This document shows positions 38,048 to 60,926 of a stretch of DNA of 64,000 nucleotides, piece after piece; position 1 is the stretch's first letter; each line of letters opens with the position of its first letter. This DNA comes from Flavobacteriales bacterium (GTDB taxonomy: Bacteria; Bacteroidota; Bacteroidia; Flavobacteriales; Schleiferiaceae). The notes below the pieces were generated by a model that made no database searches, was not told the DNA's origin, and worked only from the letters and a program-made list of their open reading frames with translations. Both the position numbers and the translations under genes were made by a program. The DNA lies in NCBI GenBank assembly GCA_017795025.1, contig CP051243.1, positions 3,310,897 through 3,374,896 of the forward strand, given 5' to 3'.

Positions 38048-40459
38048 CTAAAACTTAAATTGGGCCGCTAAAATGAAATTCCTTCCGGGGGCAACCAATC
38101 CGCTGCTGTACGGCCTATAGCGCTGATCGGTGATATTTTCAATTCCTGCACTTAAGGTCCATTCCTTATTGAGCATAAAACTGGACTTAAAGTTTAAGGT
38201 ATACCATCCAGGAGAATAAGCCTCACCATTGGCATTAGGTAAATAGAGATAGGTTTTATCGGCTTCCTCAAAATTGAGATCTTCAGCCGCTACCTCTCCG
38301 GAGTATTGCACATTAACTTCTAAGTTTAGTTTATCATAGTTAAACCGTAAACGGCTAATGCCAAACCAGGGGGCCGCATGCCGTGAAGGACCAACCACTC
38401 CGCTTTCGTCTTCTTCCATTCCACGTTGCCAATTGAAACGATTGGAGAAGGTCCATTGTCCATTGATGCTCCAATCCAATCCAAACTGTAATCCATAAAC
38501 TTGGGCTCGAGCAGCATTTTGTACGGCTTGTACTTCACTTTTTTCACCATCGTAAACGATACTGTCAAAGCCATTAAGGGTAAAAGGGCGACGCACTAGT
38601 GCCTCATCTAAATAGGTGTAGTAAGCGCTAATATCCAAACGGATATTCTCTACTAAGATGCTGGCAAGGCCTAACTCCGCATTATAGGCATATTCCGCTT
38701 CAAGGTCTGGATTGGGCACCACTACAATGGCGTCTCCCGAATCGAAAACCTTGCCGATATCATCAACATTGGGAGCTCGGAAAGCAGTTCCAAAATTGAG
38801 TCGCCATTTCCAATTTTCGGAAGGTCGATACACAAAACCCAAACTTCCAGTCAGGTTACCGGTATTTAAATTGGCCTCTGAAAAAGGCAAGGGGTAAAAC
38901 GCTTGGTTCTCGCTGAAATCACTTTCAATCCTAAATTGGTTATAGCGTAGGCCTAGTTGGGAAGTGAAGCGGGGCGACCATTCCCATTCATGGTTTAGAT
39001 AAGCCGCTAAACTTTGCCAGATAGCATCGGGGTATCGAGAGGCTCCCTGGCTTTGGAAGCCCGTTCGAATGTCCTCTACGCTGCCCTCGGAATTTACCTG
39101 GTTATGGATAAACTCCAGTCCGTAAAACAATTTATGGTCGGCAGAAACTCGCTTTAGGAAATCCAAGTTTGCCGAATAGGCATCTAAGAATTCCTCACGG
39201 TGATTAAGGAAATCATTTTGAAAGTCGCGATCATGTCTACTTTCTTCAAAATTTTGCACCGCTAAACGAATGGTTGCGCGATCAAAAAAAGCATTGGCTT
39301 TGCGAAAGTTAAGCTCCAACTTATTCATGCTCCACACCTGAGGGCCATAATACCATTCGGCGCTGCGAGGTAAACCATTACGGGTGCGAATAAGGCGATC
39401 GTAACGATCATAATCGCTGGTCCTAGAGTAAATAAAACTGTACTCTAAATCAAAGTAAGTGTTGGCCTTGTAAAAAAGCTTCTGCAGGGTGTGAAACTGT
39501 TCGAAGCCTGTATTTAATTGAATCTCGGGATCAGGATTAGAAATTTGCCGGTCGATACTGTCAATTCGCTGTACCGAAAAGTTACGCAGTAATTCTTCAG
39601 GACCATCACTCCCCATTCTTAAATCACCGTACCTATTGTAGGAAAAGCTTCCGCGCCAAGCCCAGGCTTCGGTTCCGATGTTATAATCGAAATGCTGACT
39701 CAATTCATTATTAGCGGAAGAACTACGGGCATAGGCGCTTCCGAAAACCAGGAGGTTGGTGTCGGTGCTTAATTGGGGCGACAGCGTGCTAAAGCTCATT
39801 ACCCCACCAATGGCATCGGATCCATAGATCACCGAGCCCGGACCAAAGTAGATTTCACTTCGCTCAACTGCTAAGGGGTCGATGGAGATCACTTGTTGCA
39901 AATTTCCCGAACGGAAGATGGCATTGTTCATCCGAATTCCGTCTACCGCTATTAGCAATCGATTGGTGGCAAAACCTCTAATCATTGGGCTACCTCCACC
40001 TTGCTGACTTTTTTGGATAAAAACCTCGCCGCTGCTGCCGAGCAAATCAGCACTGGTTTGCGGACTTTGCAAAAGCACATCCTTGGACTTTAATCCGCGG
40101 ATATGGTAAGGCAATTCCCTTGAGGACTGACTCCACCTTGAGGCGGAAATCACCACTTGGTCAAGGGCCAAAGGGCTAGGGTCGAGGGCGATGGTGAAGT
40201 TTAATCGCGCTAAATCCTGATACTCGATGAAGCTTGTGAAGTAGCCCATGGCGCTTATCTGGATTTGCTGTCCGCGAAAGGCAGATACATCAACCATACC
40301 CTGATCATCCGTGTATAGAGGTGTTAGAATATCTGGTCCAATGCTGAGCTCTGCGTGCTCAATGGGCTCACCTTCTTGGGCGTCGACCACTTTTATAGTT
40401 TGAGAATAAAGAGCGTTTCCGACCAGCAAAGCTATGGCCAGGCTCCATAATTTGTTCAT
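38048..40459 (-). CDS. TonB-dependent receptor of the hemin/hemoglobin type
   Basis: An 803-residue outer-membrane receptor with signal peptide LWSLAIALLVGNALYSQ, a carboxypeptidase-like domain (about 21-105), a plug and a barrel ending in KF. The plug motifs GGSPMIRGFATNRLLIAVDG and RMNNAIFRSGNLQ closely match the hemoglobin/hemin/transferrin receptor group, so heme or heme-protein uptake is the best guess. The upstream gene (40504) is 44 bases away on the same strand, and an imperfect palindrome of metal-regulator appearance lies 13 bases before the start codon. Confidence 0.92.
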   Translation of the reverse strand: MNKLWSLAIALLVGNALYSQTIKVVDAQEGEPIEHAELSIGPDILTPLYTDDQGMVDVSAFRGQQIQISAMGYFTSFIEYQDLARLNFTIALDPSPLALDQVVISASRWSQSSRELPYHIRGLKSKDVLLQSPQTSADLLGSSGEVFIQKSQQGGGSPMIRGFATNRLLIAVDGIRMNNAIFRSGNLQQVISIDPLAVERSEIYFGPGSVIYGSDAIGGVMSFSTLSPQLSTDTNLLVFGSAYARSSSANNELSQHFDYNIGTEAWAWRGSFSYNRYGDLRMGSDGPEELLRNFSVQRIDSIDRQISNPDPEIQLNTGFEQFHTLQKLFYKANTYFDLEYSFIYSRTSDYDRYDRLIRTRNGLPRSAEWYYGPQVWSMNKLELNFRKANAFFDRATIRLAVQNFEESRHDRDFQNDFLNHREEFLDAYSANLDFLKRVSADHKLFYGLEFIHNQVNSEGSVEDIRTGFQSQGASRYPDAIWQSLAAYLNHEWEWSPRFTSQLGLRYNQFRIESDFSENQAFYPLPFSEANLNTGNLTGSLGFVYRPSENWKWRLNFGTAFRAPNVDDIGKVFDSGDAIVVVPNPDLEAEYAYNAELGLASILVENIRLDISAYYTYLDEALVRRPFTLNGFDSIVYDGEKSEVQAVQNAARAQVYGLQFGLDWSINGQWTFSNRFNWQRGMEEDESGVVGPSRHAAPWFGISRLRFNYDKLNLEVNVQYSGEVAAEDLNFEEADKTYLYLPNANGEAYSPGWYTLNFKSSFMLNKEWTLSAGIENITDQRYRPYSSGLVAPGRNFILAAQFKF

Positions 40460-40488: not shown

Positions 40489-40511
40489 GATTTTCGTGTA
40501 GGACTAATCTT
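40472..40511 (-). repeat. Intercistronic inverted repeat
   Basis: AAGATTAGTC (40472-40481) and GACTAATCTT (40502-40511) are perfect 10-base inverted arms with a 20-base loop, spanning the stop codon of the 40504 gene. There is no T run, so it is not a terminator. The second arm may be a half-site related to the adjacent palindrome. Confidence 0.6.
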
Positions 40512-41031
40512 GCTGTGGAGGGGGGCTGAATGTTGGAAGATGCGCTTCGCTGAAAGAGGCCTGCCAAAAGAAACTAAAGGCTTCCCATCTCGCGAAAGCC
40601 TTGGGAAGGTTTAAGGACTCGATAAAGTAATTTTTAAAGTAGTCGATAAGTTTAAGGTCTTGCTCTTGTGGATGAGGTTGTTGCTTGCCTAAGAGGCTAT
40701 GAAATCGCTTGCGAAGTTCACTTTCCTTATCATCAAGCCAAGCTTGCACCTTTATTTTCCCAGCCTCTTCCTTTACCGATACGATATCATATTTGTGACC
40801 CTTCCAGAAAAATTCATCTTGGCCCTCCCAATCAAGATTGTCAAATTGGATCTGGGTAAACTGAAACTGGCTTATTTCATTGGGTTTTAATCCGGCGCGA
40901 AAGTGGGCTTTAACCTCTTTTCGAATCTGTTTTTGTTGCCAATGGAAAAGTCCAAAATGCAAGCTTGATGGAATTACCATGCTGCAAATCAATAAGCTAA
41001 GGCCTAAATATGTAAAGACTTTCCCAATCAT
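40504..41031 (-). CDS. Small membrane protein upstream of the hemin-type receptor
   Basis: A 175-residue protein with one N-terminal hydrophobic segment (TYLGLSLLICSMVIPSSL), a basic stretch (FHWQQKQIRKEVKAHF), a beta-rich middle (DEFFWKGHKYDIVSVKEEAG) and a proline-rich tail (LPTFSPPPQQD). I do not recognise a named family, although small proteins of this plan commonly precede TonB-dependent receptors in Bacteroidetes. Co-transcription with the receptor is likely. The product at 60540 has a similar plan (one helix, Pro-rich end). Confidence 0.75.
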   Translation of the reverse strand: MIGKVFTYLGLSLLICSMVIPSSLHFGLFHWQQKQIRKEVKAHFRAGLKPNEISQFQFTQIQFDNLDWEGQDEFFWKGHKYDIVSVKEEAGKIKVQAWLDDKESELRKRFHSLLGKQQPHPQEQDLKLIDYFKNYFIESLNLPKAFARWEAFSFFWQASFSEAHLPTFSPPPQQD

Positions 41032-59249: not shown

Positions 59250-59639
59250 TTAATGGCCAAGGATAAATATTTCCTTCCTTACTTTTTTGCGGTTACCATT
59301 ATGGTCACTGGCCTCTAGTTGCAGTTGCCAATGGGAAAAGGGTAATTCGCTCGGGATAATAAAATTGGTGTCGAGACGAATACTTTGGCCGTGCCAATGG
59401 CCCGACCAGTGAATTTCCTTTTTCATTTCACTAAGGTTATTCAGGCCCAGGTAGTAGTCATGTAATTGATCGTTATCCCTTATTTCCACTTCGATTTGAA
59501 GGGTGTCTCCAGCCTTGAGCTCCAAGGATTGTGGTGCCAAAATGTTAATGGATGGTGCTTCGATATCCTCATTTGCCTTAAATTCCTTGCTACAAGCTAG
59601 ACTACTACCAAGTATCCCCAAGATTATAAGCTTCTTCAT
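59250..59639 (-). CDS. Putative lipoprotein (DUF4625-like)
   Basis: A 129-residue lipoprotein (signal KLIILGILGSSLAC, lipobox SLAC). The mature part is a beta-rich Ig-like domain: IEAPSINILAPQSLELKAGD, then VEIRDNDQLHDYYL and LQLEASDHNGN. It contains a histidine cluster, HWSGHWHGQ, that could bind metal. The pattern reminds me of DUF4625. It starts right after the barrel gene (adjacent stop and start) and is the last gene of a three-gene unit. Confidence 0.75.
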   Translation of the reverse strand: MKKLIILGILGSSLACSKEFKANEDIEAPSINILAPQSLELKAGDTLQIEVEIRDNDQLHDYYLGLNNLSEMKKEIHWSGHWHGQSIRLDTNFIIPSELPFSHWQLQLEASDHNGNRKKVRKEIFILGH

Positions 59640-60518
59640 TTAAAGGAAATAGCTGAAGTTGATATTGAGTTGATCTAAGGCTCGATAATCGCCAATGGCC
59701 GGTAAGGGTCGGAACAGGTATTGGGCACCAAAGCTCCATTTATCGTGAATTAGTTGATAGCCAAGACCGGCAAACCAGGCCTGTCCTCCAGTGCCATATT
59801 GGTAAAACCCTCGTTTATTCACATCCTTTGCAAGGTATTCGTGATCGATGCTGAGGTAGAGCATGGATTGAAATTGATCGGTATGGCGAAGGGGTCGAGC
59901 TATTTTTAAGGAATTAAGCCATTGATCGCCAAAACGGTACCCAAAACTATTGGTGGTATTTTGCAGGTGAGCAACTTGATAAACCACTAATAAATTTTGC
60001 CAGGCACGCTCATATTGAAGTGCAAATTGGAAGTCCCAACTCTTACTTCCCGCTTGAAAGTTAGGGGCAATTACACTTTCAATGGGGCGGTTTTGAAAGG
60101 GGCCGGTTGGAAATTGTAGGCCTCCACTGAGGTAGAGACTTTGCATGCTACTGGAATCCATTTTAGACCAAATCAGTTTTTGAACCGAAAGGCTCATGTC
60201 GCCAATACTGTTTAAGCCTGCGGTTTGCCCCGTTTCGTTTAGCTCTCGCCTAGCATAGATATAGGGTAGGCCAAACTTGAGTTGCCAATTGTTTTCGAGG
60301 GCCCAGATGCCATTTAATTGCAACTGCTGAAAATAATCTACGCTTAAAGGTCCTTCGAAACGTCGCAGGCTGTAATTGGTTTTTAACATACTGCGGCCCT
60401 GATTAATCCAGTCGCCCATTCCAAAGCCTAAGCTGCCACAGCCGCAAACATCGCAGGCTTGCAGGGGCATGTAATTAAGTGCCAGGCCTAGCAGACCCAG
60501 CATATATTTTTTGTTCAT
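59640..60518 (-). CDS. Outer-membrane transporter-like protein with CDVCGCG motif
   Basis: A 292-residue protein with a signal peptide (YMLGLLGLALNYMPLQA) directly followed by a cysteine cluster, CDVCGCGSLGFG, then a barrel of about ten strands (WQLKFGLPYIYARREL, WFAGLGYQLIHDKWSFG, INFSYFL at the very end). Bacteroidetes proteins with this start are found near copper and heavy-metal genes, and the cysteines suggest metal binding at the periplasmic face. The function is unproven. It lies between the 60926 gene and the lipoprotein. Confidence 0.8.
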   Translation of the reverse strand: MNKKYMLGLLGLALNYMPLQACDVCGCGSLGFGMGDWINQGRSMLKTNYSLRRFEGPLSVDYFQQLQLNGIWALENNWQLKFGLPYIYARRELNETGQTAGLNSIGDMSLSVQKLIWSKMDSSSMQSLYLSGGLQFPTGPFQNRPIESVIAPNFQAGSKSWDFQFALQYERAWQNLLVVYQVAHLQNTTNSFGYRFGDQWLNSLKIARPLRHTDQFQSMLYLSIDHEYLAKDVNKRGFYQYGTGGQAWFAGLGYQLIHDKWSFGAQYLFRPLPAIGDYRALDQLNINFSYFL

Positions 60519-60539
60519 GTTTGAATTTTAACTTTAATA

Positions 60540-60926
60540 CTATCGGGGGGAGAGTACTAAAGTCTGGGGTGGTGGAAGGACTATTTCTATCCCCGGGTTT
60601 TCGTAAAAGTGCGCTAAGGGATAAGTATTGGCGCGAACATCTGCTTTGAACTGTGCAGCAGAATTTTGGACCCTTTCGAGCAGCCAATCTTTTTGCGTTT
60701 GAAAAACGGGCATTTCTGGTTGCGGACTTTGCTCCGTTTCTCCTTTTAAAATTCGACTTACCTGACAGCTGCCTTTGCAATTAGAAGTAGGGTCGAAGCG
60801 GTTTTCACAAAGTTCCTCTGCATAGGTTTTGTAGCGCAGGCTGTAATCCAGCATGAGTGGCAAAGGAAGTAGCAGTTGCCAGCTAAAACTGAAGAGGAAA
60901 AAATAAGAAAGCAGCTTTGAAACCAT
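60540..60926 (-). CDS. Small protein with Cys-x-Gly-x-Cys motif, unknown function
   Basis: A 128-residue protein with an N-terminal hydrophobic segment (LLSYFFLFSFSWQLLLPLPL), then the motif ELCENRFDPTSNCKGSCQV (three cysteines) and a Pro-rich tail (VLPPPQTLVLSPR). The pattern C-ENR-x-P-x2-C-x-G-x-C is one I recognise from uncharacterised Bacteroidetes proteins encoded before outer-membrane metal-related proteins, as here. It is the first gene of the unit, with a TACCTTCG box 5 bases before its start. Confidence 0.72.
   Translation of the reverse strand: MVSKLLSYFFLFSFSWQLLLPLPLMLDYSLRYKTYAEELCENRFDPTSNCKGSCQVSRILKGETEQSPQPEMPVFQTQKDWLLERVQNSAAQFKADVRANTYPLAHFYENPGIEIVLPPPQTLVLSPR

Follow-up and report, generated by a model that had tools for sequence, protein, structure and literature searches.

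The three-gene operon at positions 59250-60926 of the window, i.e., the whole analysed stretch of 64,000 nucleotides from a Flavobacteriales genome, is best read as a unit in which a nascent-chain sensor similar to CutF and CruR controls an outer-membrane channel and a histidine-rich lipoprotein with an Ig-fold. The first gene probably encodes a metal-sensing arrest leader that acts while it is being made, with copper as the likeliest metal. On the sequence level, the invariant cysteine motif together with the terminal Pro-Pro, their fixed spacing, the position of the gene, the hairpin at its end and its fast change argue for such a leader. Gene order, conservation, predicted hairpin and predicted folds form the established part of this account. 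In the open-licence literature, with preprints outside the scope, no published account of this operon was found.

The operon and its predicted products

The genome comprises 3.44 Mb in one contig. The minus strand carries three open reading frames (ORFs) of 128 aa (60540-60926), 292 aa (59640-60518) and 129 aa (59250-59639), which confirms the three-gene unit proposed in the first-pass annotation; the gaps are 21 nt between leader and barrel and 0 nt between barrel and DUF4625 gene. The flanks are ordinary: one holds PurS and a CDP-alcohol transferase, the other a divergent ACP phosphodiesterase and fumarase. As the gene upstream of the leader is divergent, the leader is the first gene of its strand run in the window. 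The motifs pointed out in that annotation, CENRFDPTSNCKGSC in the small protein, CDVCGCG in the barrel and HWSGHWHG in the lipoprotein, are present as written and do not occur by chance, since they are conserved in the relatives (27 small proteins, 20 barrels and 7 DUF4625 proteins).

The leader (60540-60926, minus strand) consists of a hydrophobic N-terminal, putative export segment, judged from the sequence, a putative metal-sensing motif C-x9-C-x-G-x-C from C40 to C54 (60765-60809, minus strand), a variable linker and the C-terminal residues P118-P120, the putative arrest site, encoded at 60567-60575 (minus strand) eight residues before the stop codon. Neither leader nor barrel reached a Pfam or NCBIfam cut-off; matches of the small protein to INCA1 (Pfam) and CirA (NCBIfam), with E about 0.03 and far below the cut-offs, were dismissed as chance.

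The second gene (59640-60518, minus strand) encodes an outer-membrane beta-barrel, as had been proposed before, which is predicted to be a channel with 12-13 long strands, based on an AlphaFold model (pLDDT 78.7, 7 sequences) and on Foldseek matches to FapF (5o67, E 5e-12) and to the COG4313 channel (4rl8, E 8e-9). FapF and COG4313 channels have 12 strands. The barrel fold is shared with FapF (5o65/5o67) and the COG4313 channel at TM about 0.6-0.7 (0.64-0.70 for 4rl8, 0.63-0.70 for 5o65); however, the identity amounts to 11-15%, the window barrel differs by its N-terminal CDxCGC segment, and it matched no Pfam family at E <= 1, including Phenol_MetA_deg (PF13557). Its relative in L057 matches Phenol_MetA_deg with 23.3 bits at a cut-off of 22 bits. 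The CDVCGC segment (C22-C27; 60438-60455, minus strand) follows the signal peptide and is predicted with pLDDT <50; among 20 barrels C22, D23 and C25 are invariant and C27 is nearly so. The suggestion that CDVCGCG forms the mature N-terminus holds for the window, whereas some relatives, e.g., L036 and L041, have about 20 mature residues ahead of the motif when cleavage sites are judged by eye. Due to this internal position it constitutes an N-terminal segment and not a lipobox, and the barrel was rejected as a lipoprotein.

The third gene (59250-59639, minus strand) encodes a DUF4625 lipoprotein (PF15418, 35.4 bits at a curated cut-off of 27) modelled by AlphaFold as an Ig-like sandwich (pLDDT 87.1). 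C16, H60, H81 and H83 are invariant in 7 proteins and H113 is invariant too in seven close relatives; H81 and H83 of the motif HWSGHWHG (59388-59411, minus strand) form, together with H60 and H113, a possible metal site. Fold searches with Foldseek and VIA-align returned many Ig-like proteins and no functional lead, and no paper on DUF4625 was found in the open-licence literature, preprints being outside the scope.

Conservation, spacing and position of the probable leader

In the alignment of 27 small proteins the only invariant columns are C40, C50, G52, C54, P119 and P120. Relatives of the leader were found in 88 of 149 genomes of the class at E <= 0.01 (two of the 88 with E >0.001) and in 91 of 247 genomes of the phylum at E <= 1e-4, the two samples overlapping. 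For the class search the profile was restricted to the N-terminal 49 positions of the leader, which was chosen against circularity. The class set was selected as the best match in each of 82 genomes, of which 78 were fetched (without G174, G284, G230 and G196); the own genome, G002, G005, G018, G231 and G237 lie outside the 82. The 80 fetched regions yielded 80 ORFs from 79 regions with a match (L119 had none), with one genomic place counted twice, since L159 and L160 denote a single site; L160 was omitted from later class counts. These two regions are the ends of the own-genome contig, which are identical over the 10918 bases compared; this suggests that a circular overlap, estimated from the offset at about 55 kb, was left untrimmed.

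All 80 ORFs found with the N-terminal profile (79 distinct places) carry Pro-Pro within their last 15 residues. Among control ORFs called mechanically in the same regions, such an ending occurs in 5 of 139 with a length of 90-160 aa and in 1 of 349 with 200 aa or more. In the order set, Pro-Pro starts 4-15 residues from the end in 51 of 51 ORFs with the cysteine pattern. Among the 130 distinct leaders (79 from the class and 51 from the order) the first cysteine spacing is 9 in every case, with 4-14 permitted, and the distance from the last cysteine to the final Pro-Pro has a median of 66 residues (sd 2.06, range 62-73). Directly ahead of the prolines stands H, R or K in 103 of the 130, preceded by F in 90, and all 16 Pro-Pro codon pairs are used, which indicates that selection acts on the residues. 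A later phylum set comprised 20 genomes fetched of 45 with matches outside the class, hand-picked and biased to stronger matches; 2 of the 20 regions gave no ORF match. Of its 18 ORFs, 17 carry Pro-Pro among the final 15 residues, the exception being L231 with a distance of 19 residues to the end, and all 18 have it 62-72 residues after the motif, while the C-x9-C spacing of 9 was observed in just 12. At L051 (5090-5434 and 8983-9327, plus strand) two variant leaders of the CVQRKMLFNSCNGRC type flank one MbnP operon, the second preceding a 719-aa receptor-like gene.

In the class, all 78 distinct leaders with a next ORF have it on their own strand, as do 17 of 18 in the later phylum set. Among loci with an upstream ORF in view, 26 of 74 in the class and 16 of 50 in the order have a same-strand ORF ending within 100 nt upstream of the leader, i.e., about a third of the relatives, and the leader is therefore not the head of its operon in general. 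This leaves the odds for a leader unchanged, since translational control of the next gene needs no first place. At L035, L036, L037, L041, L043, L044 and L046-L048 a SOD-like gene (by eye) ends 3-4 nt before the leader.

That the small protein is instead a stable periplasmic metallochaperone, with the C-terminal Pro-Pro as a docking or stability motif, is unlikely. The conserved C-x9-CxGxC motif and export segment, the metal-linked neighbours and those relatives in which the small gene is not first of its run would all fit a chaperone, but nothing except the cysteine motif and Pro-Pro is invariant, the Pro-Pro is held at 66 +/- 2 residues from the cysteine motif where it abuts the stop codon and often the hairpin, and the same-strand next gene is found without exception in the class. 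Moreover, the small gene has the highest dN of the three: between the window and L179, dN is 0.56 for the leader, 0.26 for the barrel and 0.35 for the DUF4625 gene, only dN being quoted because dS is saturated or not computable for most pairs. The first-pass annotation had suggested possible metal handling for all three proteins; the link to metals stands, by the neighbours and the conserved cysteines and histidines, while the small protein is probably a regulatory leader.

The predicted hairpin at the leader-barrel junction and known arrest systems

The C-terminal Pro-Pro and an RNA hairpin next to it had been missed by that annotation. The hairpin, predicted by folding at 60530-60564 (minus strand), begins 2 nt after the PPP codons and ends 11 nt before the barrel ATG, with the stop codon (60540-60542) inside its 3' arm. 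Its z-score is -6.9 in the anchored region, the lowest of 51 leaders with gaps of 20-80 nt, and -4.2 and -3.4 in two longer regions. The anchored region reaches from after the Pro-Pro codons to the next ORF and was compared with shuffles; only junctions of 20-140 nt to a next same-strand ORF of at least 75 aa were tested (97 leaders). The test was devised after hairpins had been seen in the first seven folds, among which L181 (z 0.2) showed nothing and L184 (z -1.9) little.

In this test the median z is -2.36 for the 97 leaders and -0.25 for 281 other same-strand junctions, with z < -3 in 38 and 48 of them, respectively. For the class sample the medians are -2.33 (67 leaders) and -0.15 (149 controls), with z < -3 in 24 of 67 versus 26 of 149 and z < -2 in 38 versus 36. 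At gaps up to 80 nt z < -2 is reached by 31 of 51 leaders and 33 of 196 controls, and at gaps >80 nt the medians are -2.16 (46 leaders) and -1.31 (85 controls). The stop codon lies in the 5' arm at 72 of 97 leader junctions versus 99 of 281 controls; in these 72 stems the first paired base is 0-2 nt after Pro-Pro in 47 (median 2 nt), while 10 nt is the median distance between the end of the stem and the next start. The later phylum set gave z < -2 in 6 of 12 junctions (median -1.5). An earlier fixed-window test was weaker: median z was -1.32 for 97 leader junctions and -0.26 for 359 controls, of which 11 and 34, respectively, had z < -3. The p-values for the hairpins are too small because the sequences are related, and as a MAFFT alignment of seven hairpin regions contained no alignable stem, the hairpin is based on single-sequence z-scores. 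Thus, a hairpin at the leader junction is common but not universal. Counted against the leader core are this incomplete occurrence, the leaders that are not the first gene, the deviating Pro-Pro position (L231) and cysteine spacings of the later phylum set, and the 24 of 79 class leader runs without any of the four partner genes; also against it counts the window stop codon, which lies in the 3' arm, unlike that of the 72 junctions with a 5' location.

A function of the hairpin as intrinsic terminator was rejected, as it is absent from the minus-strand list of terminator-like hairpins. It corresponds to no Rfam family, and a match to an animal lncRNA (E 0.99, far below the cut-off) was taken as chance.

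A closely comparable system is CutF of Rhodobacter capsulatus (cutFOG), described as an exported leader with a cysteine motif, a proline-rich end and a stem-loop that shields the next start; the CutF protein was reported to be undetectable in cells, and the proline motif alone was not a strong stalling sequence in a LepB assay (PMC9973294). Since numerous CutF-like proteins were counted for Bacteroidota as well, leaders are already known from the phylum at the level of lists (PMC9973294); the window family would be a variant of the CutF-like kind. With 128 aa the window leader falls within the <=150 aa of the CutF-like filter given there, its PPP at 118-120 of 128 places Pro-Pro within 15 residues of the C-terminus, and a stem-loop is predicted between leader and next gene (z -6.9). 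Shared with CutF are the short, putatively exported ORF before metal-linked genes, the cysteine motif, the proline-rich C-terminus, the stem-loop and the short gap. In contrast, the motif is C-x9-CxGxC here and CxxxC is named for CutF, and the downstream genes encode an outer-membrane channel and DUF4625 protein (or MbnP/MbnH) instead of the multicopper oxidase and chaperone of CutF.

CruR of Bordetella pertussis (DUF2946) is a Rho-dependent leader with CXXC and RAPP, a spacing of 45 residues and a gap of 162 nt (PMC9426467). Both leaders are upstream ORFs with a cysteine motif and terminal Pro-Pro ahead of an outer-membrane transporter gene. Unlike CruR, the family described here shows C-x9-CxGxC and FHPP, FRPP or PPP; the window leader itself has CKGSC and LPPP where CXXC and RAPP would mark DUF2946, and DUF2946 (PF11162) did not match it at E <= 1, nor anything in the whole own genome at E <= 10. 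One rather unlikely alternative is a mode of action through Rho-dependent attenuation, as known from CruR, with the hairpin being incidental. The use of Rho by CruR and the smaller hairpin contrast at gaps >80 nt are in line with it; against it, that report gives 45 residues and 162 nt for CruR (PMC9426467), compared to 66 residues and 21 nt here, and a gap of 21 nt leaves little room for termination in the window.

Arrest peptides of Bacteroidota that end in proline were described upstream of sec genes (PMC10987492). They share with the leader the phylum and a proline at or near the C-terminus, but they possess a single terminal proline, precede protein-export genes and have no metal motif mentioned in the passages describing them, whereas here Pro-Pro is followed by a few residues. 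Copper-related uORFs with RAPP or RGPP were reported as not found in Bacteroidota (PMC12992588), which is in keeping with the different motif (FHPP, FRPP, PPP) of this family.

Neighbouring genes, proposed mechanism and choice of metal

The barrel was located in 35 of 148 genomes of the order (the window and L031-L064), and in 35 of 35 loci the leader lies no more than five ORFs upstream of it. The six named loci of barrel relatives are MAGs assigned to Flavobacteriales (3), Owenweeksia (2) and an uncultured Bacteroidetes (1). In 28 of the 35 loci genes for MbnP and an MbnH-type di-haem peroxidase adjoin the barrel according to profiles, into the building of which 26 of these 28 loci had themselves gone; MbnP (PF20243) and CCP_MauG (PF03150) were verified by Pfam on L060. 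The other seven (window, L031-L034, L057 and L064) have DUF4625 adjoining the barrel. The gene order is leader, MbnP, MbnH, barrel in the former kind and leader, barrel, DUF4625 in the latter. The MbnP/MbnH pair, absent from the window operon, is present elsewhere in the own genome, in a second operon leader-MbnP-MbnH without a barrel near one contig end. L122, L153 and L169 of the class sample hold leader, barrel, DUF4625, MbnP and MbnH all together. Overall, the window operon resembles the front half of a set of five genes, with the back half located elsewhere behind its own copy of the leader.

In the class sample 55 of 79 leader runs contain at least one of the four partner genes, and 19 of the remaining 24 contain a gene >600 aa. 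The first downstream genes (n=78) include MbnP (19), TonB plug (12), YtkA (9) and Phenol_MetA_deg (7), and the second ones (n=72) MbnP (18) and CCP_MauG (13). Paralogous leaders near the MbnP operon precede YHS genes at L036 (3472-4273) and L042 (11974-12612) and SCO1/SenC genes at L039 (2960-4288) and L048 (3323-4857); these four loci checked belong to one family of the order. The first-pass annotation had mentioned similar proteins near copper genes, and the survey indeed found MbnP, MbnH-type CCP_MauG and TonB receptors, as well as YHS and SCO1/SenC behind paralogous leaders. Homologues without any metal context and without conserved cysteines, which would have spoken against a role in metal handling, are not the pattern observed, as the neighbours are metal-linked and the cysteine and histidine motifs conserved. 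MbnP was reportedly linked to copper via kynurenine formation in a paper from 2021. Copper pairs of a comparable kind are CorA/CorB and MopE/SACCP, with the CorA/CorB and MopE case treated in PMC3912023; as of 2013, close MbnP homologues were stated to have no kynurenine data (PMC3621798), and a paper from 2022 terms the role of mbnPH unknown (PMC9601215). In the own genome at about 809 kb (L221, 5301-6835, minus strand) a 248-aa lipoprotein-like gene precedes a further MbnP gene, and no MbnH or leader was seen adjoining.

We infer pausing, the identity of the metal, the direction of the response and transport as follows. The small ORF would be exported during its synthesis, and with the ribosome at the Pro-Pro codons the cysteine motif would be about 66 residues ahead. 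Ribosome tunnel and SecYEG together span about 65-70 residues, so that the motif would just be emerging into the periplasm. Pausing at Pro-Pro would depend on whether copper is bound to the motif. While paused, the ribosome would mask the first hairpin arm and leave the start region of the next gene free, while a ribosome that finishes and leaves would allow the hairpin to close. Low copper would thereby lead to pausing and switch the operon on; we marginally favour this direction over the reverse, as the genes downstream, among them MbnP/MbnH relatives and TonB receptors, suggest acquisition. The barrel channel might then pass copper or a copper complex, which the DUF4625 lipoprotein could bind via H60/H81/H83/H113.

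Copper is suggested by the MbnP/CCP_MauG neighbours, by SCO1 and YHS behind paralogous leaders and by the second leader-MbnP-MbnH operon of the own genome. Quite unlikely, by comparison, is a real leader regulation with zinc, nickel or iron as ligand, in which DUF4625 would mark zinc uptake. A TonB receptor is often encoded downstream, namely by 12 of the 78 first genes, and another DUF4625 gene of the own genome, which could serve zinc or iron, counts against copper as its neighbours are a TonB receptor and a Fur-family regulator and no leader accompanies it; against such ligands speak MbnP as first gene in 19 of 78 and second in 18 of 72 cases, CCP_MauG as second in 13 of 72, and SCO1 or YHS behind the paralogous leaders in the four loci checked. 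Other ligands and Rho-dependent attenuation are both variants of the leader core, and the likelihoods given for them need not add up to one. If the copper-sensing leader is real, the phylum uses an arrest motif of its own before outer-membrane channels, TonB receptors and MbnP/MbnH. In that case many small hypothetical cysteine proteins would be regulators rather than metal carriers, and the narrow spacing of 66 residues makes a direct claim on sensing across the translocon.

The DUF4625 gene at about 2.709 Mb of the own genome (L222, 5748-9333, minus strand) encodes a tandem DUF4625 lipoprotein between the genes for this TonB receptor and Fur-family regulator, with no leader of the C-x9-CxGxC family beside it; a role in zinc or iron uptake is possible for this locus.

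The window contains a second leader-like ORF (40504-41031, minus strand) of 175 aa, which is unrelated in sequence and belongs to no Pfam family. Its C-terminus reads SPPPQQD and lies 44 nt ahead of a TonB receptor gene (38048-40459, minus strand), with a predicted hairpin AAGAUUAGUC/GACUAAUCUU across the stop codon (z -2.2 in a 101-nt region). As both families end in Pro-Pro, show a hairpin at the stop codon and precede outer-membrane genes, the chances appear even that arrest leaders which sense the periplasm form a general and probably convergent class in Bacteroidota, with at least two unrelated families in the window. Within such a class the 66-residue reach of the cysteine family may set its sensor just outside SecYEG when the ribosome is at Pro-Pro.

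Relatives of the 175-aa ORF occur in 25 of 99 class genomes, the own one included. They mostly precede receptor-like genes (by eye), and their Pro-Pro starts 4-8 residues from the end in 26 of 26 readable cases among 28 loci, the C-terminus being unreadable at two.
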